DNA from: an uncultured Bacteroidales bacterium
GTDB taxonomy: Bacteria > Bacteroidota > Bacteroidia > Bacteroidales > Paludibacteraceae
Assembly (NCBI GenBank): GCA_902798385.1
Contig: CADBWK010000001.1
Coordinates: forward strand, 158,842-222,841
Length of the DNA: 64,000 nucleotides
Direction of reading: 5' to 3'
The notes beneath the pieces are model-generated. The model had not been told where the DNA came from. It did no database searches and saw only the letters and a list, made by a program, of their open reading frames with translations. A program made the position numbers and the translations under genes. Below are positions 10,112 to 58,080 of this stretch, piece by piece (the stretch's first letter is position 1; each line of letters opens with the position of its first letter).

Positions 10112-10724
10112 TCATCGTTAACCCGTCACGCAAAGGGAGGATGACTTGCTCAAAGCGGTCGTCCTCCTTTAGTTTGTCATTGAAGGCACGGAGACCTAGC
10201 GTCTGCTTGTCTTTGTCGTACGCCGGATCAATGATGTGACCGTCCCAAAGGGTGTTATCAGCGAGGATAAAACCACCAACCGGCACGAGCGGATAAACGA
10301 GATCGAGGTACGCGCAGTACTCGCGCTTATCAGCGTCTATGAATACCAGATCGAATGAATCGACTATGTTCCCAATCTCCAATTTACAATCTCCAATACG
10401 CAATTCTATCCGGTCTGCTAAAGGCGACCGGGATAGATTGCGTCTAATAGTCTCTTCAAGTTCGTCGTTATGCTCGATGGTGATCAGTTTGCCGCCTTCT
10501 GCCAAGCCCTCTGCCAAGCACAAGGCACTGTAACCGGTGAAGGTTCCGAGTTCGAGGATACGCTTTGGACGGATCATGTGACTGATCATACTCAGTACGC
10601 GTCCCTGCACGTGTCCGCTTAGCATATGAGGATTAAGCACGTGTACGTAGGTGTCGCGCGTGATGGCCTTTAAGACTTCATTTTCAGGAGTCGAATGAAA
10701 CGAAATATACTCGTCAAGTGTCAT
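10095..10724 (-). CDS. Class I SAM-dependent O-methyltransferase
   Basis: A 209-residue methyltransferase of the COG4122/caffeoyl-CoA type. The SAM-binding motif is LELGTFTGYSAL, and FDLVFIDADKREY carries the metal-binding Asp residues; LADNTLWDG is also typical. The ATG at 10724 is used because an upstream ATG would overlap the promoter. Within it, residues RIGDCKLEIGN are encoded by a 7-nt-period repeat just before the conserved FIDADK motif. The 3' end overlaps the thioesterase gene tail-to-tail by 17 nt. The methyl acceptor is unknown. Confidence 0.85.
   Translation of the reverse strand: MTLDEYISFHSTPENEVLKAITRDTYVHVLNPHMLSGHVQGRVLSMISHMIRPKRILELGTFTGYSALCLAEGLAEGGKLITIEHNDELEETIRRNLSRSPLADRIELRIGDCKLEIGNIVDSFDLVFIDADKREYCAYLDLVYPLVPVGGFILADNTLWDGHIIDPAYDKDKQTLGLRAFNDKLKEDDRFEQVILPLRDGLTMIRKVK
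10373..10407. repeat. 7-nt-period repeat inside the O-methyltransferase gene
   Basis: Units on the plus strand are CAATCTC, CAATTTA, CAATCTC, CAATACG and CAATTCT. It lies in frame in a conserved part of the gene, between two SAM-fold strands, and does not noticeably lengthen the protein. Confidence 0.8.
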
Positions 10725-10743
10725 TTTGTTACAAAATTTGCTG

Positions 10744-10774
10744 CAAAAGTATAAAAAAATTTGCATATGTCAAA
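10744..10774 (-). promoter_or_regulatory. Promoter of the O-methyltransferase gene
   Basis: On the minus strand TTTG (10774-10771), a 19-nt spacer and TACTTTTG (10751-10744). The -33 box lies inside the spacer of the divergent lrp promoter, so the two polymerase sites interlock. Confidence 0.75.
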
Positions 10775-10791
10775 ATAATTCTGTAATTTTG
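10760..10791 (+). promoter_or_regulatory. Promoter of the Lrp-trpS operon
   Basis: TTTG at 10760-10763, a 20-nt spacer starting CATATGTCA and TAATTTTG at 10784-10791, about 25 nt before the ATG at 10821. The two divergent -33 boxes form a near-palindrome, TTTGCATATGTCAAA. Confidence 0.8.
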
Positions 10792-10820
10792 CAGCAGAAT
10801 TTAAGCATTTTATTAAAATA

Positions 10821-11279
10821 ATGGAAAAAATTGACGAATTAGATCGTAAAATTCTGCAGATTATCACGCAAAATGCGCGTATCGCTTTTCGCGATGTAGC
10901 GGAGCAATGCGGTGTGAGCCGTGCTGCTGTTCATCAGCGTGTACAGAAGATGTTTGATAATGGTGTGATTACCGGTTCGAGTTATCATGTGCAACCCAAA
11001 TCGCTTGGCTACCAGCTCTGCGTTTATATCGGTATAAAGATGGAGAAAGCCTCGATGTATAACCAAGTCATTACTGCCCTCGAGCAGATCCCCGAGATCG
11101 TGGAAGCGCAGTATACCTTGGGTGAGTTCGGACTCCTTATTAAAGTATACGCGCACGATAATGAGCACCTGTTGACTTTGCTGAACAGTAAGATTCAGAT
11201 CATCCCGGGTGTAGCTGACACAACCACGCTAACCACACTCGCGCAGCCGATCGATCGTCAATTACCCATAGAAATATAG
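10821..11279 (+). CDS. Lrp/AsnC-family transcriptional regulator
   Basis: A 152-residue regulator. The N-terminal winged helix-turn-helix (LDRKILQIITQNARIAFRDV, then CGVSRAAVHQRV) is followed by a RAM ligand-binding domain (residues ~65-140). The family senses amino acids or metabolites and binds DNA as octamers. It is co-directional with trpS and divergent from the O-methyltransferase, over whose promoter it could act; that control is inferred from position only. The stop codon lies in a 7-nt-period repeat that continues through the trpS start codon. Confidence 0.9.
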   Translation: MEKIDELDRKILQIITQNARIAFRDVAEQCGVSRAAVHQRVQKMFDNGVITGSSYHVQPKSLGYQLCVYIGIKMEKASMYNQVITALEQIPEIVEAQYTLGEFGLLIKVYAHDNEHLLTLLNSKIQIIPGVADTTTLTTLAQPIDRQLPIEI

Positions 11280-11302
11280 ATTATAGATGATAGATTATGG
11301 AG
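11275..11302. repeat. 7-nt-period repeat spanning the lrp stop and trpS start
   Basis: Units TATAGAT, TATAGAT, GATAGAT and TATGGAG. The TAG stop of the upstream gene (11277-11279) and the ATG start of trpS (11297-11299) are both made of repeat units. Confidence 0.8.
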
Positions 11303-12286
11303 AGAGTAATTAGTGGAATACGGCCTACGGGCAACTTGCATTTAGGTAATTATTTCGGTGCGGTGAAGTCCTTCGTGAAGATGCAGGATGAGTATGATTG
11401 TATGTTCTTTATTGCCGATTGGCACTCACTCACGACGCATCCGACACCGGAGAATATACGCAATTCGGTCAAGACAATCTTGGCGGAATACCTTGCTTGC
11501 GGTATCGATCCCGAGAAAGCACCGATCTATGTTCAATCAGACGTAAAACAAGTGTTGGAACTCTACCTGTACCTCAATATGAACGCCTATCTGGGTGAGT
11601 TGGAGCGCGTGACGTCCTTCAAGGAGAAAGTGCGCAAGCAGCCGGATAACGTCAATGCCGGTTTGCTGACGTACCCGTGCCTCATGGCAGCGGATATATT
11701 GATGCACAAGGCAGACAAAGTGCCGGTAGGCAAGGATCAGGAGCAAAATATGGAGATGGCGCGTTTGTTTGCCCGTCGCTTTAACCGCATCTATAACGTA
11801 GAGTACTTCAAAGAGCCCGCTTCGTTCCATTTTGCAGACAAGGCTGTCAAAGTGCCGGGTCTGGACGGAACAGGTAAGATGGGTAAGAGTGAAGGTAACT
11901 GCCTCTATCTGTGCGATGACGAGAAGACCGTCACCAAGAAGATCATGCGTGCAGTAACCGATCAGGGTCCAACCAAACTCAACCAAGAGAAACCCGAAGT
12001 GATCCAGAACCTCTTCCTGCTCTGCGAACTGCTGTCCGGTAAGGAAGCCGCTGACTACTACAACGACCTGTACAACAACATGCAGATCCGTTACGGTGAT
12101 ATGAAAAAGCAGATGGCGGCTGATGCGAATACACTTCTCGCACCAATCCGTGAGCGTATTTTCGCATACTCAAGCGACGATGCATTGCTCGATCGGATCA
12201 TGCGTCAGGGTGCAGAGAAAGCTGCTGCACGGGCAGAAAAGACTATCGAAGAAGTCCGCGAAATCATTGGTTTCAGGAAGGTCTGA
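11297..12286 (+). CDS. trpS: Tryptophanyl-tRNA synthetase
   Basis: A 329-residue class I aminoacyl-tRNA synthetase that charges tRNA-Trp. The HIGH-equivalent signature is GNLHLGNYFG near residue 12 and the KMSKS-equivalent is KMGKSEGN near residue 195, with the expected Rossmann and helical domains and a normal length. It starts 17 nt after the Lrp-type regulator and is followed by a hairpin that covers its stop codon. Pairing with an amino-acid-sensing regulator is consistent with amino-acid control, but no T-box or leader peptide is visible upstream. Confidence 0.96.
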   Translation: MERVISGIRPTGNLHLGNYFGAVKSFVKMQDEYDCMFFIADWHSLTTHPTPENIRNSVKTILAEYLACGIDPEKAPIYVQSDVKQVLELYLYLNMNAYLGELERVTSFKEKVRKQPDNVNAGLLTYPCLMAADILMHKADKVPVGKDQEQNMEMARLFARRFNRIYNVEYFKEPASFHFADKAVKVPGLDGTGKMGKSEGNCLYLCDDEKTVTKKIMRAVTDQGPTKLNQEKPEVIQNLFLLCELLSGKEAADYYNDLYNNMQIRYGDMKKQMAADANTLLAPIRERIFAYSSDDALLDRIMRQGAEKAAARAEKTIEEVREIIGFRKV

Positions 12287-12290
12287 AACC
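12269..12290 (+). promoter_or_regulatory. Hairpin over the trpS stop codon
   Basis: GGTTTCAG (12269-12276) and CTGAAACC (12283-12290) are perfect complements separated by 6 nt, with the TGA stop inside the right arm. There is no T tract, so it is more likely an mRNA processing or stability element than a terminator. Confidence 0.5.
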
Positions 12291-12338
12291 AATTAAATCG
12301 TGCCCTTTGGGCTAAGAAATTATTGGATTCAGAAAGAT

Positions 12339-12551
12339 TTGAAAAAGTTCATCTACATAGGAATAATGGCGATCTTGTGTGGCTCTTGTGCCTCACAAGC
12401 ACCCCTTGATGATGCCTACTATTGGCCGGATAAGCGGGGCAATAGTGGAGAGACAAAAGTGGAGAGTGGAGAGAAGAAAGTCGATAGTGAGAAGTCTATG
12501 GAGGTGGTCTCGCAGAACGATACGACGATAACCGTTAGGATTAAAAGATGA
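12339..12551 (+). CDS. Small lipoprotein
   Basis: About 70 residues from a TTG start at 12339, giving LKKFIYIGIMAILCGSCAS: a short basic end, a hydrophobic stretch and the lipobox LCGSC, so it is expected to be lipidated at the Cys. A GTG at 12300 would add 13 residues and spoil the signal peptide, so TTG is preferred. The middle is encoded by a 7-nt-period repeat and reads as Lys/Glu/Ser-rich low complexity. The stop overlaps the start of the outer-membrane protein gene (ATGA), suggesting coupled synthesis and possibly partnership. Function unknown. Confidence 0.6.
   Translation: MKKFIYIGIMAILCGSCASQAPLDDAYYWPDKRGNSGETKVESGEKKVDSEKSMEVVSQNDTTITVRIKR
12444..12499. repeat. 7-nt-period repeat inside the lipoprotein gene
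   Basis: Eight units: AGTGGAG, AGACAAA, AGTGGAG, AGTGGAG, AGAAGAA, AGTCGAT, AGTGAGA and AGTCTAT. Translated, this gives a run built from KVESGE-like steps. Confidence 0.8.
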
Positions 12552-13837
12552 GACGCATAGGAATCATAGGGTTTGTGATGCTCTCGCTTGCTTTGCAAGC
12601 GCAGGACTACGCCCGTCTGTCCGAGCGAACGATACTCGGTACGGCGCGCTATGTAGGTATGTCCGGCGCGATGACGGCCATCGGAGGTGATCCTTCGGCG
12701 GCGCAGGATAACCCAGCCGGCTTAGGTCTCTATCGCCGCTCGGAAGTGATGCTGACGGGTGACCTCGGCATCGATAAAACCACAAGCACCAAATCCTTAT
12801 TGCATTTCTCACTGGCTCAGGCTTCGGTGGTGCTCTCCTTACGAACCGGCAACGAAGACAAGGGAATCATTGCTCATAACCTGATGTTCTCCTACCAGCG
12901 CCGCCGCACCTATGCCCGTACGATGTACGGATCGGCTACGTATGGTCCTTCGTTGGGTAGCCTCTTGGCTTCGGAAGGGATAGATATACGCATCAAATAC
13001 CCGAATCACATGACCAATGACGGGAACTGCCTGACGTTCGATGAACGGGGTTCGACCTATGAGTTCGGCTTCGACTGGGCGATGAACTACTCCAATCAAT
13101 GGTACGCCGGTCTGGGTCTGCGGATCCATTCCTACGGACTGACGGAAGATGCGGTATATCAAGAAGATTTTGCGATCGATACCTCTTATTTGGATAACAA
13201 GACCTACGTCACCCATCGAGGGGTAGGTGTGAGCCTGGCTGCGGGTGCTATCTACCGTCCTACGGGCTGGTTACGTATCGGTTTGGCAATCCAGACCCCG
13301 TCGCTGGGTTCGCTGACCACCTACAGCCGTGGTACAACGGTCGCCGGAATGGATTCGATCCGTACCAGTTGGGCGCCCGACGGCAGTTACCGGGATAATG
13401 ACTTCCATCTGCCGTTGCGTCTGTCGAGTTCGCTGGCATTCCAGATCGGGGCGTACGGCATGGTCGCGGTGCAATATGACTATAGTCATGCCAAGTACCA
13501 AAACGACCGTCACACCTTCCGTGTCGGACTCGAGGCGATCCCTGTATTGGGACTCTATATCAATGCCGGCTACGCGTACGAGAACGATTTTGTAAAGGGA
13601 GACAACCCATATGCGATCGACCCGCTCTTTGAGCGCCGGGATTCGTACTCGCAATATACGCACGGCGTCCATTACGCCTCGTGTGCGATAGGCTACAGAG
13701 GTTCGGCGATGATCGTTCAGATGGCTTACCAATACCGCTGGCAGAAGATCAATCTGTATGCGCACCCGATGGCTGCGGACTACGATATCAAAGCAGAGAC
13801 ACATCGTATCGTGCTGACCCTGGGGTGGCACCGATAA
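12548..13837 (+). CDS. FadL/OmpP1-like outer-membrane beta-barrel protein
   Basis: A 429-residue protein with an N-terminal signal peptide ending near SLALQAQ. The mature N-terminus reads GTARYVGMSGAMTAIGGDPS then NPAGLGLY, the hallmark of Bacteroidetes FadL/TodX-type porins. The remainder alternates hydrophobic and polar residues with many aromatic strand ends, as expected of a beta barrel. It probably carries hydrophobic or small nutrients across the outer membrane. The start overlaps the lipoprotein stop. It ends the trpS operon; the candidate RNA at 13848-14050 follows 10 nt after the stop. Confidence 0.82.
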   Translation: MRRIGIIGFVMLSLALQAQDYARLSERTILGTARYVGMSGAMTAIGGDPSAAQDNPAGLGLYRRSEVMLTGDLGIDKTTSTKSLLHFSLAQASVVLSLRTGNEDKGIIAHNLMFSYQRRRTYARTMYGSATYGPSLGSLLASEGIDIRIKYPNHMTNDGNCLTFDERGSTYEFGFDWAMNYSNQWYAGLGLRIHSYGLTEDAVYQEDFAIDTSYLDNKTYVTHRGVGVSLAAGAIYRPTGWLRIGLAIQTPSLGSLTTYSRGTTVAGMDSIRTSWAPDGSYRDNDFHLPLRLSSSLAFQIGAYGMVAVQYDYSHAKYQNDRHTFRVGLEAIPVLGLYINAGYAYENDFVKGDNPYAIDPLFERRDSYSQYTHGVHYASCAIGYRGSAMIVQMAYQYRWQKINLYAHPMAADYDIKAETHRIVLTLGWHR

Positions 13838-13847
13838 GACATATACG

Positions 13848-14050
13848 GCATCGTGTAGCTACGAGACCGGAAAACTCAACAAATAACAACTAACCGAGTG
13901 CAAATGCTTCACTAATGGCGTGCCGATACTCTACGCCGTGACCCGGAAACGGATAGCGATGAGGTGGTCGGATTACAAAGGAAAAAGCAGGCCTCAAATC
14001 CTATCTTAAGGAAGTTTTCTCGCGCAAAAATGCTACACGGTGCTTTTTTT
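13848..14050 (+). ncRNA. Candidate structured RNA or structured 3' UTR, about 196 nt
   Basis: The ends pair over 12 bp: GCATCGTGTAGC (13848-13859) with GCTACACGGTGC (14032-14043), with one G-U pair, followed at once by seven T residues. Inside there is a hairpin of TCAC/GTGA plus GGCGT/ACGCC (about 13910-13965) and further short stems. I see no TAnnTTTG promoter just upstream, so it may be processed from the trpS operon mRNA. The closed-end rod shape and size recall 6S RNA, but I could not match it to any RNA family; RNase P, tmRNA and SRP signatures are absent. Confidence 0.45.
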
Positions 14051-14061
14051 GTGCACTTTTT

Positions 14062-14093
14062 CTTGCATATATGCAAAAAAAGTAGTAACTTTG
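14062..14093 (+). promoter_or_regulatory. Promoter of the TPR-ribH-aspartokinase operon
   Basis: CTTG (TTG at 14063-14065), a 20-nt spacer and TAACTTTG at 14086-14093, some 50 nt before the ATG at 14145. It begins immediately after the T tract of the preceding terminator-like stem. Confidence 0.75.
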
Positions 14094-14144
14094 CAGCCGA
14101 TTTGTGAAAACCATATTATTGAAAATAATAAAACAACAAATAAA

Positions 14145-14828: not shown

Positions 14829-15304
14829 TGACGACCGATTTGTCAAAATATGATAGTTCCCAATTGCCTAGCGCTGATGTTCTCGAACGTCAGCGCTATG
14901 CGATTGTAGTAGCGGATTGGAACAGCGAGATCACTTTCTCGATGGCGCAAGGAGCCGTTGACACCTTCGTCAAACACGGCATTCCGGCGGAGAACATCGA
15001 CGTGATCCATGTGCCGGGTACAGTGGAACTGACCTATGGCGCTGCGCGTATCACCAAAGAAGAGCGCGTCGATGCCGTCATTGTCATCGGCTGCGTGATC
15101 CAAGGCGAGACACCGCATTTTGACTACGTGTGCCAATCGGTGACGCAAGGCGTGGCGATGCTCAATGCACAAGGCAAAGTGCCGGTGATCTTCTCCGTGC
15201 TGACGGTCCTGAACCAACAACAGGCGCTGGACCGTTGCGGCGGTAAACTTGGCAATAAAGGTATCGAAGGCGCCTATACAGCCATCCGCATGGCTAACCT
15301 GTAA
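14828..15304 (+). CDS. ribH: 6,7-dimethyl-8-ribityllumazine synthase
   Basis: A 158-residue lumazine synthase, the penultimate enzyme of riboflavin synthesis, joining the ribityl-uracil and butanone phosphate substrates. Family landmarks are visible: DWNSEIT near the N-terminus, VPGTVELTYGA, GCVIQGETPHFDYVC with the catalytic His, and VIFSVLTV. Length is normal. No FMN riboswitch is present upstream; the gene is instead coupled to the TPR gene. Its last codons and stop lie in a 7-nt-period repeat. Confidence 0.94.
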   Translation: MTTDLSKYDSSQLPSADVLERQRYAIVVADWNSEITFSMAQGAVDTFVKHGIPAENIDVIHVPGTVELTYGAARITKEERVDAVIVIGCVIQGETPHFDYVCQSVTQGVAMLNAQGKVPVIFSVLTVLNQQQALDRCGGKLGNKGIEGAYTAIRMANL

Positions 15305-15322
15305 CCCATAACGCGTAACCCC
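15295..15322. repeat. 7-nt-period repeat at the ribH-aspartokinase junction
   Basis: Units TAACCTG, TAACCCA, TAACGCG and TAACCCC. The ribH stop codon (15302-15304) is the first triplet of the second unit, and the run ends 2 nt before the next ATG (15325). Confidence 0.8.
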
Positions 15323-15324
15323 TC

Positions 15325-16569: not shown

Positions 16570-16574
16570 TAACC

Positions 16575-17714: not shown

Positions 17715-17715
17715 T

Positions 17716-18615: not shown

Positions 18616-18616
18616 T

Positions 18617-19645: not shown

Positions 19646-19648
19646 ACT

Positions 19649-21929: not shown

Positions 21930-21965
21930 TATAGGTTAAATTTTAATATTTCCACAAAATCGCTG

Positions 21966-22013: not shown

Positions 22014-22036
22014 TGCCGTTTTTTAGAATTAGATGA

Positions 22037-24520: not shown

Positions 24521-24521
24521 T

Positions 24522-24944
24522 ATGATTATAGCTTGTGACTTTGATGGTACGATCGTTACCCACGAGTACCCGAAAATAGGCAAACCCATCCCCTTTGCCA
24601 TCCAGACCCTCAAGAAACTTCAGGATGAGGATCATCACCAGATCATCCTCTGGACGGTGCGGGAAGGCGACCTGCTCCAAGAGGCCATTGATTACTGCAA
24701 GTCCAAAGGATTGGAATTCTATGCGGTTAATTCCAATTATCCGGAAGAAGAACCAGAGCACGGCACGGCGCGCAAATTGGTAGCTGATCTCTGGATCGAT
24801 GACCGCAATCTCGGTGGACTGCCCGATTGGGGAGTAATCTATAATATGATTCATTCCGGACATCCCTACGAACCCGCTCCGCAGGGGAATATGGAAGATC
24901 TTCGTCCTCAGAAAAAAGGCTTCTTTGCCAAACTGTTTGACTAA
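24522..24944 (+). CDS. HAD-like hydrolase (BT0820 type)
   Basis: A 140-residue minimal HAD-superfamily protein. The N-terminal nucleophile motif is IIACDFDGTIV, and LWIDDRNLGG supplies the late acidic motif. There is no large cap domain. It resembles the small phosphatase-like proteins of Bacteroides, such as BT0820, whose substrate is not known to me. The C-terminal tail is Lys/Phe-rich. The stop codon abuts a 7-nt-period repeat leading into the next gene. Confidence 0.75.
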   Translation: MIIACDFDGTIVTHEYPKIGKPIPFAIQTLKKLQDEDHHQIILWTVREGDLLQEAIDYCKSKGLEFYAVNSNYPEEEPEHGTARKLVADLWIDDRNLGGLPDWGVIYNMIHSGHPYEPAPQGNMEDLRPQKKGFFAKLFD

Positions 24945-24971
24945 ATATCCAGTATCCAATGTCCAATATCC
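24944..24971. repeat. 7-nt-period repeat forming the GNAT gene start
   Basis: Units AATATCC, AGTATCC, AATGTCC and AATATCC. The third unit contains the ATG start codon of the next gene and the fourth encodes part of its N-terminus. Confidence 0.8.
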
Positions 24972-25468
24972 GCTTGCGTAAACTCGAGCCCTCCGACTTG
25001 CCGTTTCTCTATTTATGGGAGAACGATGCGGCTGCTTGGGCAGATGGCGACAATCATAATCCCTTGTCCCAACAGGATTTGCGCGATTATATTGAATCCA
25101 CAACCGGCGATATATACAAGGACGGTCAGTTACGTCTGATTATAGAGCAATCACCAATGACCAATGACCAATCACCCATTACCCTTGGTTGCATCGATCT
25201 CTTTGATTTCGACCCCCGGAATCGCAAGACCGCGCTCGGAATGTACATCGCGCCGGAACACCGCGGTAAAGGAGTAGGGCGGCAAGCGCTCGAGCAATTG
25301 GAGGCCTATGCTTTTGGTCATCTTAATCTCCGCCTCTTATACGCTGTCATCGCCACGAATAACGAGCCCTGTTCGGCGCTTTACCGCTCCGCCGGCTACC
25401 AACCTTCATCTCCTCTACCGGCTTGGACACTCGAATCCGATGCCGTCATTTGGATAAAAAAACAATAA
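24959..25468 (+). CDS. GNAT-family N-acetyltransferase
   Basis: A 169-residue RimJ/RimL-like acetyltransferase. It begins IRLRKLEPSDLPFLYLWEND, typical of the family, and has the acetyl-CoA loop APEHRGKGVGRQAL and the closing strand with LYRSAGYQ. Acceptor unknown (protein N-terminus, amino sugar or antibiotic-like amine are all possible). Two 7-nt-period repeats touch the gene: one supplies the start codon, the other (25148-25182) encodes residues around QSPMTNDQSPITL in a loop before the central strand, apparently an insertion. It is the last gene of the RSH-recR operon and is followed by a terminator. Confidence 0.82.
   Translation: MSNIRLRKLEPSDLPFLYLWENDAAAWADGDNHNPLSQQDLRDYIESTTGDIYKDGQLRLIIEQSPMTNDQSPITLGCIDLFDFDPRNRKTALGMYIAPEHRGKGVGRQALEQLEAYAFGHLNLRLLYAVIATNNEPCSALYRSAGYQPSSPLPAWTLESDAVIWIKKQ
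25148..25182. repeat. 7-nt-period repeat inside the GNAT gene
   Basis: Units CAATCAC, CAATGAC, CAATGAC, CAATCAC and CCATTAC, in frame. The reading frame is kept although single units are not a multiple of three. Confidence 0.85.
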
Positions 25469-42414: not shown

Positions 42415-42430
42415 AAGCTTTTAGAATTAA

Positions 42431-42455
42431 TAATGATTAATGAATAATGAATATC
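42431..42455. repeat. 7-nt-period repeat, first copy of a 25-bp identical pair
   Basis: Units TAATGAT, TAATGAA, TAATGAA, then TATC. These 25 bases are repeated exactly at 43149-43173. They lie between the two membrane-protein genes. Confidence 0.9.
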
Positions 42456-43141: not shown

Positions 43142-43173
43142 TAATGAATAATGATTAATGAATAATGAATATC
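43142..43173. repeat. 7-nt-period repeat, second copy of the 25-bp pair
   Basis: Units TAATGAA, TAATGAT, TAATGAA, TAATGAA, then TATC. Bases 43149-43173 equal 42431-42455. It separates hypA from the flavoprotein gene and reaches the stop codon of the latter. Confidence 0.9.
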
Positions 43174-46015
43174 ATTTTTTCCTAAAAATTATTTTACCTG
43201 CGCGTTTGAGCATGTACGGAAGGATACCGTCGAACTTATTCTCGGATGTGCGCATGATACTGGCTTCGGGGTGTTCACGGTGCAGATGGATGGCATCAAA
43301 TGCACATTTGGTGGTACAGATACCGCATCCGATACATCGATTTTCATCCACGACGGAAGCTCCGCAGCTGAGACAACGAGCGGTTTCGCGTTTTACTTGC
43401 TCTTCAGTCAATGTACCGTGGTACTCTTCGAAATTGGACTTAGTCGGAATAACTCCCGGGTCTTGACGAGAACCATTATCGTATTGCTCAACAAGGATAT
43501 CCTGTTTGTTGAGTTCGATGAAGTCACGTCTGTTTCGACCGATGGTCATGTGGCCACCTTGGACGTATCGATGGAGCGATTCAGCGGCTTCTTTGCCCGT
43601 AGCAATCGCATCGATAGCGAACTTAGGACCGGTGAACACATCGCCTCCGACGAAGATGTCCGGTTCGGCTGTTTGGAGCGTCAGTTTATCTGCGACGGGA
43701 TATACGCCACGGAAAAACTCCACCTTCGTATCTTTTAGCAGGTCTTTTAATACCACCGTCTGACCAATCGCAAAGATGACTAAATCGGCTTCCAGCGTGA
43801 TGGTTTGGGACTCATCGAAGGTCGGCGCGAACTTATGGTCTTTGTCAAAAACAGCGGTACATTTCTTGAAGGTGATACTCTTTACTTTCGACTTTTCACC
43901 TTCCACTTTCATCGGTCCCCAGCCGGGATTGATGACTACCCCATCCTCGCGTGCTTCGAGTCGTTCTTCGAGTGATGCCGGCATGATATCTTCTGTTTCG
44001 AGCGAGAGCATGGTCACTTCCGAAGCACCGCTACGTTTAGCCACACGTGCCGCGTCGATCGCTACGTTACCACCTCCGACCACCACGACTTTGCCTTTGA
44101 TCTTCTTCTGTCCGCAGTTGGCGTCATGGAGAAAGTCGATCGCTGTAGTGCAGCCTTCGAGGTCTTGACCTTCAATACCCGGCAGACGTCCGCCTTGGCA
44201 GCCGATAGCGACATAGAAGCCTTTGTATCCCTGCTCGCGCATTTGGGCGATCGTGATGTCTTTGCCGACTTCGACGCCACATTGGATGTCCACACCAATC
44301 TCGCGCATGATATCAATTTCGGCGTCAATAACGGCCTTGTCGAGTTTGTAGGACGGGATGCCATAACGCAACATACCTCCGGGTTTCTCGTTACGCTCAA
44401 AGACGGTCGGCTTGTAACCCATCGTAGCAAGGTAATACGCACAACTGAGGCCCGAAGGACCACCGCCAATGATGGCGATCTTCTCTTCCCAACGTTCTTG
44501 GACGTTCGAGCAGATGTTAACTTCGGGAATGAAGCGTGTCTCGGCGTGCAGGTCGCGCTCCGCAATGAATTTCTTGACGGCATCGATGGCGACCGCACGA
44601 TCAATCGTTCCGCGCGTACAAGCGTCCTCGCAACGACGGTTGCAGATACGGCCGCAGACAGCCGGGAACGGGTTCTCACGTTTGATGAGTTCTAGGGCCT
44701 CGGTGTATTTGCCTTCCGCGGCTTTCTTGAGGTAGCCTTGCACGGCTATATGGGCCGGACAAGCGGTTTTGCAAGGCGCCGTTCCTGTCGGATAACAGTT
44801 GATACGGTTATCATCGCGATAGTTCTCATTCCATTTATCTTCGCCCCATTTGGTAGCATCAGGCAGTTCTTGTTTGGGATAAGTCTGCGGACCATGTTGG
44901 GTACACAGTTTCTGACCCAATTTGACTGCACCAGCCGGACAATACTCGACGCAACGACCGCACGCGACGCAGTTCTTCGGATCGACTTCTGCAACATAGG
45001 CACTGCGGCTCATGTTAGGTGTATTGAAGAGTTGGGAAGTACGTAAGGCGTTGCAAATCTTAACGTTACAGTTACAGATAGCAAAGATCTTACCTTCTCC
45101 GTCGATGTTCGTTACCTGGTGTACAAATCCATGGTCTTCGGCTTTCTTAAGTATGGCGATCGCCTCATCGTAGGTGATATCATGGCCACGCCCCGTCTCG
45201 CGCAAGTAATCCGCCATATCGCCCACACCGATACACCAATCGCGGTAGTCATCGGCACAGCCTTCGTCCAGCTTTTTGCGGCCGTAACGGCAGGAACAGA
45301 TACCCACGCCGATATGTCCTTCGTATTTCTTAAGCCAATACGAGATATGCTCAATATCCACGGATTGGTTCTCCATGGAGATGGCTTTCTCAACTGGAAT
45401 GACATGCATACCGATCCCGGAACCGCCCATCGGGACCATCGGCGTGATCTTCTCCAACGGAAGGAAGGTCATTCGCTCGAAGAACATCGCCAGTTCGGGA
45501 TGCTTGTCCATGAGTTCGACGTTCATGTTCGTATATTCAGCACTTCCAGGCACGAACATCGGGACCCAGTAGATGCGCTCTTCTCTTGTGAAACCAGAAC
45601 GCTCTACGTCCTGCCACACTCCATTCACATGCTTCGGATATTTATCGCCGTAATCGTATTCGAGCATGCCGAAATACGCCAGTTTATCGAGCAAGTCATC
45701 CAAACTCTTATCGTCAGGCGTGTAGTGTTTCTCGGCATTCATCGCGTGCAACTGCGCGTAGGTATGATGCTTGCGAACCTTGAAGAAATTACCGGGCAGC
45801 ATATCTAACAGCAGATCCAACGACGCCTCACGCGTTACGGGATCCATCTCGTCCTCAAAGATACACGCTAAGCCCCAATATTCCGGGGCATCGGTAGTCA
45901 TCTTGATCTTTCCTGGAACACGGTCAGTCACGTGCCGAACGAACTTCAGCAATTTGGGATTCGGATTTTGGTCGCCCCTATGTTTGGGAACGAACTTGTC
46001 GGACATCTGTGGCAT
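43172..46015 (-). CDS. Large iron-sulfur flavoprotein, GltD-like NAD(P)H oxidoreductase
   Basis: A 947-residue multidomain protein. The N-terminal ~330 residues form a Cys-rich domain with CSCRYGRKKLDEGC, DWCIGVGD and CNCNVKIC. A dicluster ferredoxin motif follows (CVACGRCVEYCP, ~350), then a GltD-type four-Cys module (CKTACPAHI, VCGRICNRRCEDAC), the FAD loop (IIGGGPSGLSCAYYLA), the NAD(P) loop (VVGGGNVAIDAARVAKRSG), FAIGQTV and a final 4Fe-4S motif (CIGCGICTTKC). It resembles subunits that pass electrons from NAD(P)H to ferredoxin or a partner enzyme. A 7-nt-period repeat encodes KVEGEKSKVKS. It lies between hypB and hypA. Confidence 0.82.
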   Translation of the reverse strand: MPQMSDKFVPKHRGDQNPNPKLLKFVRHVTDRVPGKIKMTTDAPEYWGLACIFEDEMDPVTREASLDLLLDMLPGNFFKVRKHHTYAQLHAMNAEKHYTPDDKSLDDLLDKLAYFGMLEYDYGDKYPKHVNGVWQDVERSGFTREERIYWVPMFVPGSAEYTNMNVELMDKHPELAMFFERMTFLPLEKITPMVPMGGSGIGMHVIPVEKAISMENQSVDIEHISYWLKKYEGHIGVGICSCRYGRKKLDEGCADDYRDWCIGVGDMADYLRETGRGHDITYDEAIAILKKAEDHGFVHQVTNIDGEGKIFAICNCNVKICNALRTSQLFNTPNMSRSAYVAEVDPKNCVACGRCVEYCPAGAVKLGQKLCTQHGPQTYPKQELPDATKWGEDKWNENYRDDNRINCYPTGTAPCKTACPAHIAVQGYLKKAAEGKYTEALELIKRENPFPAVCGRICNRRCEDACTRGTIDRAVAIDAVKKFIAERDLHAETRFIPEVNICSNVQERWEEKIAIIGGGPSGLSCAYYLATMGYKPTVFERNEKPGGMLRYGIPSYKLDKAVIDAEIDIMREIGVDIQCGVEVGKDITIAQMREQGYKGFYVAIGCQGGRLPGIEGQDLEGCTTAIDFLHDANCGQKKIKGKVVVVGGGNVAIDAARVAKRSGASEVTMLSLETEDIMPASLEERLEAREDGVVINPGWGPMKVEGEKSKVKSITFKKCTAVFDKDHKFAPTFDESQTITLEADLVIFAIGQTVVLKDLLKDTKVEFFRGVYPVADKLTLQTAEPDIFVGGDVFTGPKFAIDAIATGKEAAESLHRYVQGGHMTIGRNRRDFIELNKQDILVEQYDNGSRQDPGVIPTKSNFEEYHGTLTEEQVKRETARCLSCGASVVDENRCIGCGICTTKCAFDAIHLHREHPEASIMRTSENKFDGILPYMLKRAGKIIFRKK
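43881..43908. repeat. 7-nt-period repeat inside the flavoprotein gene
   Basis: Plus-strand units CTTTACT, TTCGACT, TTTCACC and TTCCACT. In the coding direction they read AGTGGAA-like, close to the AGTGGAG units of the lipoprotein gene at 12444. It falls between the NAD(P)-binding and final FAD segments. Confidence 0.75.
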
Positions 46016-46022
46016 GGTGTCA

Positions 46023-46050
46023 ATTATGAATTAAGAATTATGAATTAATA
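46023..46050. repeat. 7-nt-period repeat at the hypB-flavoprotein junction
   Basis: Units AATTATG, AATTAAG, AATTATG and AATTAAT. The hypB stop codon (46045-46047) lies in the last unit. Confidence 0.85.
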
Positions 46051-46713: not shown

Positions 46714-46756
46714 GTTGTGTTTTTCTTGTATTAGGCGATTTTATTCAATTTTGCTG

Positions 46757-46788
46757 CAAAGGTACAAAAAAAATCCCACATACGCAAA
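46757..46788 (-). promoter_or_regulatory. Promoter of the hyp cluster
   Basis: On the minus strand TTTG (46788-46785), a 20-nt spacer and TACCTTTG (46764-46757), about 40 nt before the hypB ATG. Its spacer is the terminator of the upstream operon. Confidence 0.78.
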
Positions 46789-46800
46789 TGTTTGTGGGAT
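46765..46800 (-). terminator. Terminator of the V-ATPase/fabD/BI-1 operon, inside the hypB promoter
   Basis: On the minus strand ATCCCACA and TGTGGGAT (46800-46793 and 46780-46773) form an 8-bp stem with a 12-nt loop, followed by eight T residues that belong to the -33/-7 spacer of the hypB promoter. Confidence 0.75.
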
Positions 46801-46852
46801 TTTTTGTGGGATTTGTTGATATTTACTCTAATACCATGCCAAAGATAATTTA

Positions 46853-47560: not shown

Positions 47561-47563
47561 AAT

Positions 47564-48436: not shown

Positions 48437-48438
48437 AA

Positions 48439-48870
<432 letters not shown>

Positions 48871-48880
48871 TTATTTATTG

Positions 48881-51225: not shown

Positions 51226-51231
51226 AACCTA

Positions 51232-52560: not shown

Positions 52561-52565
52561 AGTAC

Positions 52566-54323
52566 TTACTTTTTAATTTGTTTTTCTGCCAATAGTTCAT
52601 CGAGTTTCTTGCGGTAATCTTCGAACTCAGCCGAGTGGAACTCGCAGTAGTTCATCTGCTTGCAGAGGTTGATCACACGCTTGAAATAGTCGATGACATC
52701 GAGGAAATTATCGAAGTCATAATCGTGCTTGCAGATATCCATTACGAGACGCAGCATGTATTGCTGACGCTCGAGCGGACAAACAGCATCGATCTTATCG
52801 AAGGCATCTTGCTGGAGGATGACGAAGTCAATCACTTCGGCTTTCCAGAATGCCTCGTGGTAATCTACAGGTACACCGTCATCACCGAGGATGTTAATCT
52901 GCTCCTGAATCTCCTTACCGCGTTGCAGATAGGTCTTCATGTCGTTGACCATCGGCAACCAGTCTTTATCAATCAGTTGGCTGATATATTCGGCAAACTC
53001 CGGATACTCCACATATTTGGAGTACGAATCGATCGGGTTGACAGCCGGGTAACGCTTACGGTCCGCACGTGCCTGCTCCAAAGCATAGAAACAACGTGCC
53101 ACTTTCTTCGTACCTTCGGTAACCGGCTCTTTGAGGTTACCACCGGCCGGCGATACGGTACCGAGGAAGGTTACCGAACCTGTAGCTCCGTTATTGAGAT
53201 ATACGTATCCTGCGCGAGCATAGAAAGCACCGATGATCGCCGAGAGGTCCATCGGGAACGCATCCTGACCCGGCAACTCCTCCAGACGGTTCGACATCTC
53301 ACGCAAGGCCTGTGCCCAACGAGAGGTGGAGTCCGCCATGAGGAGGACACGCAGACCCATCGAGCGGTAATACTCAGCGATGGTCATGGATGTGTAGACA
53401 GAAGCTTCACGGGAAGCGACCGGCATGTTCGAGGTGTTGGCAATGATGATGGTACGCTCCATGAGCTTACGGCCCGTGTGCGGGTCATCGAGTTCAGGGA
53501 ACTCGGTAAAGGTCTCTACGACCTCGTTGGCACGCTCACCGCAGGCAGCGATGATCACGATGTCTGCTTCGGCCTGTTTTGAGATAGCGTGCTGAAGCAC
53601 GGTCTTACCGGTACCGAACGGACCTGGTATAAAGCCCGTACCACCCTCGCAAAGCGGGTTCGCCGTATCGATCGTACGCACACCCGTCTCGAGCAGTTTG
53701 AATGGCCGCGGTTTCTCGCGGTACGCCAGGATAGCTTTCTTCACCGGCCATTTCTGCACCATCGTCACGTTGTGGTCGTTGCCCTCTGCGTCAGTCAGCA
53801 CAGCCATCGTATCGTTGATGGTGTACTCACCTGCCTTGGCAATCGACTTCACGGTGTACGTTCCTTCAAACACGAAGGGCACCATGATCTTGTGCGGTTG
53901 GTGATTCTCATCCACTTCTCCCAGCCAAGCAGCTGCTTCTACCTTATCGCCCACTTTCGCGATCGGAGTGAAAGCCCATTTCTTTTGCTCGTCAAGCGGG
54001 AAGTTGTACTCACCGCGCTTGAGGAACACGCCCGTCAGTTTGTCGAGGTCATTCTGCAGACCGTCGTAGTTACGGCTGAGCAGACCCGGACCTAAGGTCA
54101 CTTCGAGCATGTGACCGGTGAACTCCACTTTGTTGCCCACTTTGAGGCCACGAGTGGACTCGAACACCTGCGCGTACACATTTGCGCCGATGACCTTGAT
54201 GACCTCAGCCATCAGTTTGGTCTCACCGACGTAGATGTAACAGATTTCGTTTTGCGCAACCGGGCCGTCTACAGCAACGGTCACCAAGTTGGCAATAATT
54301 CCTTTTACTTTTCCAGTTGTCAT
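52566..54323 (-). CDS. V-type ATP synthase subunit A (catalytic)
   Basis: A 585-residue catalytic ATPase subunit. Walker A is GPFGTGKTV (~230), the catalytic-Glu region reads CGERANEV and the arginine-finger region ADSTSRWAQALREMSNRLEE. It has the non-homologous insert (~110-190) that distinguishes V/A-type A subunits from F-type beta. Length is normal for bacterial V-type enzymes. Confidence 0.96.
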   Translation of the reverse strand: MTTGKVKGIIANLVTVAVDGPVAQNEICYIYVGETKLMAEVIKVIGANVYAQVFESTRGLKVGNKVEFTGHMLEVTLGPGLLSRNYDGLQNDLDKLTGVFLKRGEYNFPLDEQKKWAFTPIAKVGDKVEAAAWLGEVDENHQPHKIMVPFVFEGTYTVKSIAKAGEYTINDTMAVLTDAEGNDHNVTMVQKWPVKKAILAYREKPRPFKLLETGVRTIDTANPLCEGGTGFIPGPFGTGKTVLQHAISKQAEADIVIIAACGERANEVVETFTEFPELDDPHTGRKLMERTIIIANTSNMPVASREASVYTSMTIAEYYRSMGLRVLLMADSTSRWAQALREMSNRLEELPGQDAFPMDLSAIIGAFYARAGYVYLNNGATGSVTFLGTVSPAGGNLKEPVTEGTKKVARCFYALEQARADRKRYPAVNPIDSYSKYVEYPEFAEYISQLIDKDWLPMVNDMKTYLQRGKEIQEQINILGDDGVPVDYHEAFWKAEVIDFVILQQDAFDKIDAVCPLERQQYMLRLVMDICKHDYDFDNFLDVIDYFKRVINLCKQMNYCEFHSAEFEDYRKKLDELLAEKQIKK

Positions 54324-54326
54324 ATC

Positions 54327-54938
54327 TTAGTCTAATTTAATTCCCTTTTTCATATCCGCAACCAGTTCACGGAAGATCTTTTCGCCTTCTTCGATGGTCA
54401 GGATGGACCAGCGATGGAGCATCACAGCTTCGAGATAGTAAGCAAAGACCATCTCCGGCGAGAAGAAATCGAACTCCGTGCGGTCTTGGAGCCATGTGAA
54501 GCGAATGGCGTCTTGCGCTTTCTCGCGTTGCATCAGATCCTCGATATTGGCCAACGCCAATATCTCCGTCCAGTCACCGCTTACCTCGTTCAGACCGAAG
54601 TCTTTTTGGTTCACGTGGGCGCGTAACTGCTCAGCCACTTCACCTTCTCCAACGATCTGGGTCTTGGCATCGAAACCGTGCTTGCGGCATATCTGCGCTA
54701 CCAGGATATTATTCATATCCTGATTGAACGCAAACCACTCCCGCACAAAGCGGTTGCGAGCCTTGAGACCTTCCGCCAACGTAGCTTCGTCCATCGGAGC
54801 ACGCAACAATGCCAAATATTTCTTATCCGACGCAGACAGCTGTTCATCCAGCAGTTCGTCCAATTTCTCCATCGAAATCGGACTATCACTTCCTGCCTTC
54901 AGTTCAGGCAATCCCGCCAATAAATATTCGTAAGTCAT
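54327..54938 (-). CDS. DUF2764 family, V-ATPase-associated (possible subunit C equivalent)
   Basis: A 203-residue soluble, helical and acidic protein opening MTYEYLLAGLPELK. DUF2764 genes are regularly found between subunits E and A in Bacteroidetes V-ATPase operons, where a recognisable subunit C gene is missing. A role joining the shaft to the rotor ring is inferred from position. Subunits F and G/H are also unrecognised here. Confidence 0.82.
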   Translation of the reverse strand: MTYEYLLAGLPELKAGSDSPISMEKLDELLDEQLSASDKKYLALLRAPMDEATLAEGLKARNRFVREWFAFNQDMNNILVAQICRKHGFDAKTQIVGEGEVAEQLRAHVNQKDFGLNEVSGDWTEILALANIEDLMQREKAQDAIRFTWLQDRTEFDFFSPEMVFAYYLEAVMLHRWSILTIEEGEKIFRELVADMKKGIKLD

Positions 54939-54939
54939 A

Positions 54940-55524
54940 TCAGAAGAGTTCTTCTACGAGTTGCGGACGAAGCATTTCCTTGAAGTATGCGATGAACTCG
55001 GCATCACCGAAGGCGAGTTTGTAACCACCCTTTGCCGGTTGGATCGTGAAATCGGTCTTGATGCCTTTCACTTCGCTGATCTTCACGCCCTTCTCGAGCA
55101 ATCCCTTTGCGTTCGCTGCAAAGTATTTCTTCAGCGCCTCGGCATCCTTGGTCTCGATGAGCACCTCGCCGTTCTTGGCCATCTGCTCTGCCAACTTCGC
55201 GATGAGACCCTGCATGAACTTCGCATCTGCCGTCGCAGCCTTCACGCTATCCGCAGTGATCTTATCAGCCAAGAGATTCACGATCTCGGTCTTCACGGCG
55301 TTCACGCTCTGCTCTGCGTACAATTTCAATTCAGCACGTGTTTTCTTGTCCATGTCTGCCGATTTCGACTCTGCCTCTGCTACTAACGCAGCGGCTTTCT
55401 TCTCTGCCTCTGCAATGATCGCAGCCGCTTTCTCGTTCGCCTGTGCTACGATCTCTTGCGCCTGCGCATTTCCTTTTTCTACGCCTTCCGCATAGATTTT
55501 CTCAGTAATTTCTGAAAGATTCAT
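54940..55524 (-). CDS. V-type ATP synthase subunit E (peripheral stalk)
   Basis: A 194-residue protein. The first ~110 residues form an Ala/Glu/Lys-rich helix (EIVAQANEKAAAIIAEAEKK), as in the stator stalk, and the remainder a small globular domain ending EMLRPQLVEELF. First gene of the V-ATPase operon, close behind the promoter at 55583-55614, with 1 nt to the DUF2764 gene. Confidence 0.9.
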   Translation of the reverse strand: MNLSEITEKIYAEGVEKGNAQAQEIVAQANEKAAAIIAEAEKKAAALVAEAESKSADMDKKTRAELKLYAEQSVNAVKTEIVNLLADKITADSVKAATADAKFMQGLIAKLAEQMAKNGEVLIETKDAEALKKYFAANAKGLLEKGVKISEVKGIKTDFTIQPAKGGYKLAFGDAEFIAYFKEMLRPQLVEELF

Positions 55525-55582
55525 TTTGTATAGTAATTTTATATTATTGCAATTCCTAACGGCTTTGCGCCGAATTCGGCTG

Positions 55583-55614
55583 CAAAGTTACGAAAAAAAA
55601 ATGACATAAACAAA
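55583..55614 (-). promoter_or_regulatory. Promoter of the V-ATPase operon
   Basis: On the minus strand TTTG (55614-55611), a 20-nt spacer beginning TTTATGTCA and TAACTTTG (55590-55583), about 52 nt before the ATG at 55524. Confidence 0.78.
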
Positions 55615-55622
55615 TGTTTATG
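55593..55622 (-). terminator. Terminator inside the V-ATPase promoter
   Basis: CATAAAC (55605-55611) and GTTTATG (55616-55622) form a 7-bp stem with loop AAAT; on the minus strand TCA and nine T residues follow. It would end the OmpA-gyrA-side transcript, within the next promoter. Confidence 0.75.
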
Positions 55623-55648
55623 CCACTTTTTATAATTTTCTTTCTTTT

Positions 55649-56836
55649 TTATGGAATAAGGGTTATCTCCACGCGACGATTAAGTGCGCGACCTTCTTCC
55701 GTATCATTGGAAGCGACCGGTTTGAGATCTCCGTATCCAAAAGCCTTGATTCCATCGGGATTACAGCCGTATTCGATAAGTTGTCTCCGAACGGCTTCTG
55801 CGCGTGCCTGCGAGAGGGCTTTGTTATCTTCCGGCTTGCCAATATTATCTGTGTGTCCCGCCAGGCGGATCTTATAGCCATACGTACTCACGAACGTAGC
55901 AATACGTTTGAGTTCCGGAAGGGACGCCGGCATGATGATATCTTTGCCTGTCTCGAAGAGCAGATTATTGATTGCCACGGCTTGATTGGTTGCCAAAACC
56001 GTGATGGTTTCCGGGCGTTTGTCTTCGGGCAGTTCCACACAATAGATATCATGTCTACGACCGGATTTCTGCGCATAGTATGCTGTCTTGCCATCTGTGG
56101 AGATCTTATACCAGCAGTCACGACCGGGAGTATTGATAGCTTCTCCGAGGTTCTCGGGTTCCGACCAGCAGTTCCAGCAGGTGTCACTAAGCCTGCGGCT
56201 TACCCATACATCCAAATCGCCCATCGTGCCTTCTTTGTCCGATGAGAAATACAGAGTCTTCATGTCCGGGTGCAAGAACGGGGAACGTTCCATTCCGCGG
56301 GTGTTGATTGCCGCTCCTATCGAATACGGTTGCCCCCACCTACCCTGCGCATCACGCTCCGAGACAAAGATGTTCAGACTCGCTTTTTCTTCGTTTTCAA
56401 CGGGATGATTTGCTGCGAAGAGCAGTACCGAACCATCGGCAGAGATCTGTGCATCCGCTTGCCAGTTGCCTAATTGCAGATACCGCGGTAAGGGTTGGGG
56501 TTCTGTCCAGCCGTACGGTCCTTTTTGTGAGAAACACATACGTCCTTCCACAAAGAGCAACATCAATCGCCCGTCACCGGAGATCGATGTAGGCGCTTCG
56601 TTGCGGTAAGGACTCGACAAAGCCGGTACGATCTGCGCCGCCGACCACTCTCCGCTTTTGGGATCACGACGAGAAACAAAGATATCTTCAGACAGATTGC
56701 TCTCCGAGCGGTTAAGTCCCACAAAATACAGGGTGTTATCGTCGACGGTTAGCGTCGGACCATACTCCTCACCTTCCGGCGTATTGATCGCGGAAGACAA
56801 GATGATTGCAGATAATATAGATAGAATTAATTTCAA
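55649..56836 (-). CDS. OmpA-family protein with PD40 repeats
   Basis: About 395 residues from a TTG at 56836, which gives a good signal peptide (LKLILSILSAIILSSA); earlier ATG codons lie in the cinA gene. The middle contains WD40-like PD40 strands (DNTLYFVGLNRSE, MKTLYFSSDKEGTMGDLDVWVS, KTAYYAQKSGRRHDIYCVELP) and the C-terminus a peptidoglycan-binding OmpA domain (RLAGHTDNIGKPEDNKALSQ, RVEITL). It links the outer membrane to the cell wall. The layout resembles PorE-like type IX secretion proteins, but the usual partners are absent here. Confidence 0.82.
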   Translation of the reverse strand: MKLILSILSAIILSSAINTPEGEEYGPTLTVDDNTLYFVGLNRSESNLSEDIFVSRRDPKSGEWSAAQIVPALSSPYRNEAPTSISGDGRLMLLFVEGRMCFSQKGPYGWTEPQPLPRYLQLGNWQADAQISADGSVLLFAANHPVENEEKASLNIFVSERDAQGRWGQPYSIGAAINTRGMERSPFLHPDMKTLYFSSDKEGTMGDLDVWVSRRLSDTCWNCWSEPENLGEAINTPGRDCWYKISTDGKTAYYAQKSGRRHDIYCVELPEDKRPETITVLATNQAVAINNLLFETGKDIIMPASLPELKRIATFVSTYGYKIRLAGHTDNIGKPEDNKALSQARAEAVRRQLIEYGCNPDGIKAFGYGDLKPVASNDTEEGRALNRRVEITLIP

Positions 56837-56838
56837 AC

Positions 56839-58080
56839 TTATGCTTGTTGATGGATAATTTTTAATAGGCCTACCAGGGCTTTGAGACACGCACGATCGG
56901 TTATCTGTTCCCGCAGTTTCCCGAGATGGAAGCATTCAGCGAAGGTGCCTTTAGGAGTAGCCCACGCCATCCAAACAGTGCCCACGGGTTTGGCGGCAGA
57001 ACCGCCGGAAGGACCGGCTATACCGCTCGTTGCGATGGCATAATCTGTGCCTAACTGTTGACGCACCGACTCCGCCATCACACGTACCACATCTTCACTC
57101 ACCACGCCGTACTCTTGTATCATCTCAGCGGGGACGCCTAACATATGCTCCTTGACCGAGTTGTCGTAACTGATGACCGAACCGTAATAAAAAGCCGATG
57201 AACCCGGGTGTTTGCTAAGTAATGAAGCTAACTTTCCACCCGTACAGCTCTCAGCGGTAGAGATAGTCTGATGACGCTCTGTGAGCAGACGACCGACAAT
57301 CATTTCTAGCGGTTCATCGGTTTCAGCGATGAGATACTCACGCACAAGTGCCTTTAAGTCAGCGAAATAACGCGCCATCTCTGTCTCCGTCAGTTCTCCA
57401 TAACTTGACAAACGCAAACGGATGACACCATCTTTCGGCAAGTACGCCAGATGAAGACCTGAAGGCATATTTGTCTCGAATTCATCGAGTAAAATAGCCA
57501 ACGAACTCTCCGCAATACCGGTTACCTGCATTGTGCGATGCAGGATTTGTGATTTTTGATTCTCGAGTTTTGATTGGATATACGGAAGGATCTGCTCTTT
57601 CATTGCAATCTCCATCTCGTACGGGACACCGGGCATCGAAGCCAGTATCTTATTGTCCTTGTGGAAGATCATCAGCGGCGCCGAACCTACCCGATTCTCC
57701 AGAATAACCGCCTTATCAGGTACCTGCCATTGTGTCTCTGTCAAACGGTTGAGCACGTCCGGGCGATCTTTATACAGATCCTTTATATGCGCGCGCACGT
57801 TTTGATCTTCTATAAGGTGTGCGCCGAAATACTCGCACAGCACGTGTTTGGTGATGTCATCTTTGGTAGGACCAAGTCCACCGGTTGTCAGAACGATATT
57901 TGCTCTATTAAAAGCCTCGTTGAGAGCTGCAATAATATGTTCGCGGTCGTCATGAACAGAGGTAATCTGATACAGTTCAATACCCTGTTCGTTCAGTCTT
58001 TGAGCCATCCAAGCGGAGTTGGTGTCTACCACTTGGCCGATCAGCAACTCGTCTCCTATCGTGATTATTTCTGCGCGCAT
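56839..58080 (-). CDS. cinA: CinA family (nicotinamide mononucleotide deamidase/damage-inducible)
   Basis: About 413 residues from the ATG at 58080, giving MRAEIITIGDELLIGQVVDTNS; an ATG 12 nt earlier is possible. The N-terminal MoCF-like domain has LTTGGLGPTKDDITK and the C-terminal deamidase domain TAESCTGGKLASLL and ATSGIAGPSGGS. Roles are NMN recycling and repair of ADP-ribose compounds. A 7-nt-period repeat (57544-57578) encodes residues around SKLENQKSQIL in the linker between subdomains. It overlaps the DUF3109 gene by 16 nt. Confidence 0.93.
   Translation of the reverse strand: MRAEIITIGDELLIGQVVDTNSAWMAQRLNEQGIELYQITSVHDDREHIIAALNEAFNRANIVLTTGGLGPTKDDITKHVLCEYFGAHLIEDQNVRAHIKDLYKDRPDVLNRLTETQWQVPDKAVILENRVGSAPLMIFHKDNKILASMPGVPYEMEIAMKEQILPYIQSKLENQKSQILHRTMQVTGIAESSLAILLDEFETNMPSGLHLAYLPKDGVIRLRLSSYGELTETEMARYFADLKALVREYLIAETDEPLEMIVGRLLTERHQTISTAESCTGGKLASLLSKHPGSSAFYYGSVISYDNSVKEHMLGVPAEMIQEYGVVSEDVVRVMAESVRQQLGTDYAIATSGIAGPSGGSAAKPVGTVWMAWATPKGTFAECFHLGKLREQITDRACLKALVGLLKIIHQQA
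57544..57578. repeat. 7-nt-period repeat inside cinA
   Basis: Plus-strand units GATTTGT, GATTTTT, GATTCTC, GAGTTTT and GATTGGA, kept in frame in the coding strand. Confidence 0.8.

Follow-up and report, generated by a model that had tools for sequence, protein, structure and literature searches.

Repeat arrays at the locus

The window, i.e., the whole stretch of 64,000 nucleotides (nt) analysed here, belongs to contig CADBWK010000001.1 (positions 158,842 to 222,841 of the forward strand; assembly GCA_902798385.1) of an uncultured Bacteroidales bacterium of the Paludibacteraceae, and carries short tandem arrays with a period of seven nt, which lie between and inside genes such as hypB, trpS and those for lumazine synthase and aspartate kinase. 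What is conserved in these arrays is the period and not the unit: across species, the same slot can be empty in some and filled with unrelated units in others.

A preliminary description of the window listed eleven such runs, all of which are present. When scored against 300 dinucleotide-preserving shuffles of the window, six of them (11275-11302, 24944-24971, 25148-25182, 42431-42455, 43142-43173 and 46023-46050) exceed chance individually, each with at most 0.017 expected per shuffled window, while the other five (10373-10407, 12444-12499, 15295-15322, 43881-43908 and 57544-57578) are at noise level when taken alone, with 0.4-1.25 expected. The set is nevertheless in excess, with 12 segments scoring at least 8 (one of them outside the list) against 1.25 expected, and six scoring at least 10 against 0.1. 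The sites are the following, with the number expected per shuffled window and with a strand where one applies:

10373-10407, period-7 run, unit CAATCTC, within a weakly scored minus-strand open reading frame (ORF) at 10095-10766; 0.40 expected
11275-11302, period-7 array taking up the space between an AsnC/Lrp-type regulator gene and trpS; 0.010 expected
12444-12499, purine-rich run, unit AGTGGAG, in a gap; 0.40 expected
15295-15322, period-7 run at the junction of the lumazine synthase and aspartate kinase genes, covering the end of the former and the gap; 1.25 expected
24944-24971, period-7 array across the gap to an acetyltransferase-like gene (24959-25468); 0.017 expected
25148-25184, the strongest period-7 array, inside the same acetyltransferase-like gene; none in 300 shuffles
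42425-42455, period-7 array, unit TAATGAA, in a gap between minus-strand genes; 0.003 expected
43142-43173, period-7 array, unit TAATGAA, filling the gap downstream of an oxidoreductase gene (43172-46015); none in 300 shuffles
43877-43912, minus strand, slot in the oxidoreductase gene coding for MKVEGEKSKVKS and including the listed run 43881-43908; 1.25 expected
46022-46050, period-7 array taking up the space that separates hypB from the oxidoreductase gene; 0.003 expected
57544-57578, weak period-7 run, unit GATTTTT, inside an ORF (56839-58092); 0.59 expected

Relatives lend support to three of the weak sites (15295, 10373 and 43881). The ortholog of 15295 in the nearest relative is a period-7 array, and at 10373 the units of two relatives (G006 and G036) are identical, plus one extra recognisable unit, with different inserts in other relatives. 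The slot comparison gave no aligned relative for 12444 or for 57544; in a separate alignment with the nearest relative, the former corresponds to a different, shorter purine-rich run. In that nearest relative, the 25148 array has equal length and the 24944-24971 array is missing. The site of 43142 is, in relatives, an overlap of the two genes, another array, or free of arrays, and the gap at 46022-46050 holds different 7- or 8-nt repeats, or none.

Genes were called by a home-made codon-usage script, which missed at least one array-bearing gene (24959-25468, whose acetyltransferase-like match falls below the cut-off). By these calls, the 105 arrays of the window's genome comprise 46 inside genes, 46 between genes of the same direction, ten between convergent and one between divergent genes, and two next to ends. 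No clear strand preference was seen, the coding strand being G-rich in 25 and C-rich in 19 arrays within genes, and 31 and 18, respectively, in gaps. Curated cut-offs are passed by HypB, the tryptophanyl-tRNA synthetase, the lumazine synthase and the aspartate kinase, and are not reached by the regulator upstream of trpS or by the oxidoreductase. In HypB and the oxidoreductase, the reading frame stays open throughout the in-gene arrays, with conserved sequence on either side.

Abundance in the genome and among relatives

The window's genome bin (1.92 Mb, 74% complete) was sampled over 462 kb, i.e., the window and 20 further stretches, and yielded 98 period-7 arrays against none in one shuffle, so that the comparison with shuffled sequence, set beforehand as a possible refutation, did not refute the excess. 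Heptamers are the commonest repeat class in this sample, followed by periods 8 (13 arrays), 9 (11) and 11 (8), those of 14 and 21 being harmonics. The period had been called strict: period 7 does dominate, but 8-nt arrays occur alongside, and unit-to-unit identity in arrays shared between species is about 0.88.

The relatives were reached with one window gene, as the best 80 of 353 loci (1.43 Mb in all), and are uncultured Bacteroidales, some labelled Paludibacteraceae and many with ruminant-sample names. These loci hold 116 arrays of period 7 and 48 of period 8 (one of each being a run of N), against one each after shuffling. The density of period-7 arrays per 100 kb is 21 in the window's genome, reaches 25 in the 19 loci of near relatives, and drops to 11 in the nearest genome (G003) and to 0.3 in 40 GC-rich loci (two arrays, one of them a run of N); for five genomes belonging to other families, samples of 40-120 kb put it at 0 to 2.5. 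On the protein tree, the arrays mark the 20-row clade of the window and some other groups. A period-7 or period-8 array is found in 33 of the 40 loci below 54% GC, and GC content alone is no full explanation, given that the other seven have none.

Across 61 genomes of one genus, an AAT pattern, which favours AT-rich units, counts long arrays repeatedly and misses others, varies from about 0.5 to 336 hits per Mb, and is no higher than its reversed control in five genomes; one genome low by this measure (G072) still has three arrays in 20 kb. With this wide span of densities and with slots that are empty or hold unrelated arrays, the clade offers a natural experiment, in which genome comparison and resequencing could test where the 7-nt stride and the length peak described below come from.

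Orthologous slots with and without arrays

The clearest slot is the gap upstream of trpS, both flanks of which could be aligned in 12 genomes besides that of the window. In five of these 13 genomes the gap is 13-14 nt long and free of arrays; in seven, that of the window among them, it holds a period-7 array, and in the last it is longer and different. Likeness among the seven units, taken over both strands, averages 0.52 (0.34-0.68), against 0.57 for unrelated arrays of the window's genome, so the arrays sharing this slot are no more similar than unrelated ones. Similarly, the gap between the lumazine synthase and aspartate kinase genes measures 6 nt within the compared span in 3 of 16 genomes and is longer in the other 13, including the window, most of these having differing 7-nt units, some of them weak.

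Inside genes, the arrays rewrite loops of conserved proteins such as HypB. One HypB loop has 13 residues in most of 78 rows; within the window's clade, the inserts in it are of four or more kinds, some of which are not heptameric. At the oxidoreductase slot, most relatives have 11 residues, those without an array showing a KEVLGEDKVSG-like loop, and others have 12-20 residues coded by different arrays, which in several relatives are clearer 7-nt arrays than the window's 43881 run. Here the array takes the place of the loop and does not extend it.

Other inserts occupy the same slots. A family of the type AAAGACCGCTTCGCTCAAAG or GACCGCTTCGCTGTA is present in slots of 7-nt arrays in L053, L060 and L080 (HypB, oxidoreductase), and also in L161, L138 and L139 at the ortholog of window position 10373, and palindrome-like inserts with CCCTC and GAGGG arms are found in HypB or oxidoreductase loops of L052, L059, L063, L065 and L128. 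The gap upstream of the oxidoreductase gene (window 46016-46044) can hold, before the start codon, a 15-nt (7+8) repeat of the type AAATCGTAAATNATT, which recurs in the distant L061, L065, L067, L068, L070, L072, L080, L105 and L111, some of them nearly array-free, and has been lost or replaced in the window. One 32-nt array is identical in the hypB of L059, L063 and L068, where the aligned DNA is 81-92% identical, and this identity in three diverged species suggests a recent exchange of this part of hypB.

The tempo of change was followed by setting arrays against their orthologous sites, 231 times in all, in pairs that share ancestry and are not independent. The partner also has an array in 29% of cases at 80-85% identity (n=157), 54% at 85-90% (n=26), 63% at 90-95% (n=43) and 60% above 95% (n=5), and in many replaced arrays the other unit leaves no trace, even at 90-93% identity. 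Length variation had been proposed as a further check, and between close relatives, rather than strains of one species, lengths do vary: differences of whole units were found in 9 of 23 of these non-independent pairs at 88% identity or more (3.2 expected) and in 17 of 66 at 80% or more (8.8 expected), with clear single cases of +21 nt in a gene, -14 nt in a gap and +32 nt in an 8-nt array. As regards phase variation, in which a hypermutable tract switches a gene, what was seen is that the units are degenerate and that shared arrays of equal length are 0.95 identical.

Composition of the units and length of the arrays

Once aligned for rotation and strand, 111 arrays reduce to 68 distinct consensus units, the most frequent of which occurs eight times. 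That the unit differs from place to place is thus borne out, with differing units even in the same slot, but the units are not arbitrary: their joint alignment reaches 4.6 bits, where random genomic 7-mers give 2.6 and shuffled units 3.1, i.e., they share a weak pattern of base order. The pattern extends to G003 and the near relatives and weakly to other clades, and does not clearly cover the published units of other phyla. G and C tend toward opposite strands, both being present in 38 of the 111 units against 53.6 expected, an effect not seen in other clades (8 of 26 against 7.1). The commonest aligned units, such as AAATCAA, have no G-run on either strand.

Pairs of arrays sharing 14-24 nt are no more frequent than after shuffling of the unit order, and sharing at 12 nt is slightly high (reached by 13 of 200 shuffles). 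In a few cases, neighbouring arrays share more, namely 27 nt in the window (42425 and 43142) and 33 nt in G003.

The detected period-7 arrays peak near 31 nt, or about four units, in three data sets, and no such peak was seen for periods 6 and 9 at a lower threshold. In a detection-corrected fit, a geometric law is worse by 41 (window genome), 16 (G003) and 14 (relatives) log-likelihood units than a free law with 11 more parameters. Of the arrays that measure at least 17 nt, the free fit assigns 59%, 37% and 46%, respectively, to 28-31 nt; it also puts many runs at 14 nt, partly by chance, two-unit runs making up 58 of about 186 in the window's genome. The peak is sharpest within genes, where 30 of 54 arrays have 29-34 nt and none has 19-24 nt, and to which reading-frame selection may contribute by favouring gains of three units.

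Possible origins of the arrays

In this group of gut bacteria, related species have built unrelated arrays at shared sites, a sign of some poorly understood habit of copying in steps of seven letters. The explanation favoured here, with confidence that is about even, is that these heptanucleotide repeats, which are degenerate, arise in place time after time, through copying steps of 7 nt and, less often, 8 nt. The engine would most simply be slipped-strand synthesis, with births starting from chance 7-nt similarity near the site, partly where the gene upstream ends. Arrays would for the most part be neutral, surviving at sites with little constraint on length or sequence, persisting where they are harmless and then being lost. 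Slippage is supported by the whole-unit length steps, which exceed chance, and these, together with the unrelated units in the same slot, partly uphold the preliminary description's idea of a process that copies or slips in 7-nt steps. At one slot, moreover, the units track the codons with which each species ends its own copy of the upstream gene (5 of 5000 permutations).

Several observations weigh against birth by slippage. Its plainest form is weakened by three of them: the lengths peak near 31 nt, whereas simple slippage would have them fall off; the 71 spacer arrays (of 133) that start downstream of the stop codon show no in-phase likeness to the end of the gene; and kept arrays of equal length, at 0.95 identity between species, are stable. 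To these may be added the base-order pattern of the units, the sequence shared by a few neighbouring arrays, and the slightly greater likeness of arrays less than 3 kb apart (p 0.002), which makes some local copying between neighbours possible.

The main alternative to slippage is a step that writes ready-made stretches of about four units as a block, possible but rather unlikely in our judgement. It would account for the length peak and the poor fit of the geometric law (with its 11 fewer free parameters), for the 30 of 54 in-gene arrays at 29-34 nt with none at 19-24 nt, and for insertions of 22-28 nt where the site of another species is short, although arrays also change by whole units, the free fit places many two-unit runs as well, and the in-gene peak may come from frame selection for three-unit gains. 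One might tentatively go further and envisage a dedicated or unusual replication or repair process of the clade, which writes such blocks at gene junctions and in protein loops, repeatedly and independently in sister species; if true, new spacers and peptide loops would be made on the spot by a block writer whose stride and stop length are built in. An unlikely reading is that the arrays are selected cis-elements, about four units of which would serve, in gaps, the translation machinery or a protein that binds nucleic acid with a 7-nt footprint, occupancy being kept as the sequence drifts. The 46 of 105 arrays between same-direction genes and the four-unit length fit this reading, and a like idea, with heptamer binding by cold-shock proteins, has been suggested for TAACTGA repeats that lie immediately before start codons (in the cited passages of PMC4679880). 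On the other hand, arrays are about as many inside genes as in same-direction gaps, strand preference is not clear, and close relatives keep the gene pair intact without the array.

Spread of array copies from site to site, by gene conversion or a mobile step, is improbable: the likeness of arrays within 3 kb and the shared 27 and 33 nt would suit it, but sharing of 14-24 nt does not exceed that of unit-order shuffles, and no reverse transcriptase match was found in ten genomes. Chance or assembly artefact is hardly credible, even though the genomes are mostly metagenome bins and five of the listed runs are at chance level, given the absence of arrays from the shuffled 462 kb and the recurrence of the same arrays at orthologous sites of separately named assemblies.

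Other candidates were tried and set aside. Seeding from the upstream gene end gave a strong signal over the 133 spacer sites, which is largely gene-end overlap, since it is absent in the 71 post-stop arrays; as a general rule it was rejected, and it holds at one slot. Diffuse 7-nt mutagenesis was discarded when the lag-7 signal disappeared after masking of the arrays, and genome-wide copying of arrays when 14-24 nt sharing equalled the unit-order shuffle. Concerted evolution, which one gene slot had suggested for kept arrays, was unsupported by 20 equal-length orthologous pairs, and low RNA structure as a cause of the unit pattern had no consistent effect. As for enzymes, a mutS-family match in 60 of 61 genomes (56 above the cut-off) speaks against loss of mismatch repair, a Y-family polymerase, present in 48 of 61 genomes, is not associated with a significantly different array density (p 0.12), and reverse transcriptase was dropped, all ten genomes being without a match.

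Relation to known heptanucleotide repeats

The short tandemly repeated repetitive sequences of Cyanobacteria are heptanucleotide tandem runs like the arrays of the window, but with a few conserved units, unlike those of the window's clade. Neither these nor the TAACTGA type describes the present arrays, which have no single fixed unit but 68 among 111. Like bacterial heptanucleotide simple sequence repeats in general, they exceed chance, form the commonest class and vary in length by whole units. They do not behave as copied elements, their sharing of 14-24 nt being no higher than unit composition gives, except in a few neighbouring pairs.

The preliminary description knew of no match in Bacteroidales, but related cases are on record: TAACTGA heptamer repeats were reported from marine Beggiatoaceae, Cyanobacteria and five Bacteroidetes including Paludibacter (MacGregor 2015, PMC4679880, in the passages cited here). 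Among the matches listed, this is the only paper to combine "heptanucleotide repeat" with "Bacteroidetes", and those matches include no account of many-unit heptamer arrays in rumen Bacteroidales; the available part of another study (PMC12699852) gives a high repeat density for Bacteroidota and does not use the terms heptanucleotide or heptamer. As in the window's clade, the TAACTGA repeats form 7-nt arrays in short gaps, and in some relatives the corresponding genes are separated by shorter gaps that lack repeats. However, according to the same passages they have one fixed unit, related heptamers being rare in the main genome, whereas the unit varies here by site and species; beside some of the Bacteroidetes sets, other heptamer repeats occur. 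Horizontal transfer has been proposed for them (PMC4679880, cited passages).

In Xanthomonas and Nostoc, as far as the cited passages go, repeats of GGGAATC and GGGGA(T/C)T are known (Rehm et al. 2015, PMC4692102), which also mentions Calothrix heptanucleotides. They resemble the present arrays in their partly degenerate 7-nt unit (GGGANTN), in their many dispersed arrays (hundreds), in their mode of four units, in lying mostly in gaps between same-direction genes and in differing in length and sequence between close species. They differ in having a single G-rich, quadruplex-capable unit type, against many types often without G-runs here, and in an in-gene share of 7-11% in Xanthomonas, against 46 of 105 in the window's genome. 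Quadruplexes could be a reason for the four-unit mode in Xanthomonas; the units of the window's genome are mostly without G-runs. Among long simple sequence repeats, heptamers are the most abundant class in most genomes, and a 7-nt contact length of DNA polymerase was proposed as the cause (Mrazek et al. 2007, as cited in passages of PMC4679880 and PMC4692102); that work is a repeat count per genome, and births at orthologous slots do not appear in the passages citing it. Heptamer repeats are thus known elsewhere with one main unit, and the window's clade has a many-unit variant.

Two repeats of other periods lie inside ORFs of the window: a perfect 9-nt repeat, ATTTTCACC, in 3.3 copies (61433-61462), and a 33-nt repeat in 2.3 copies (55358-55433).

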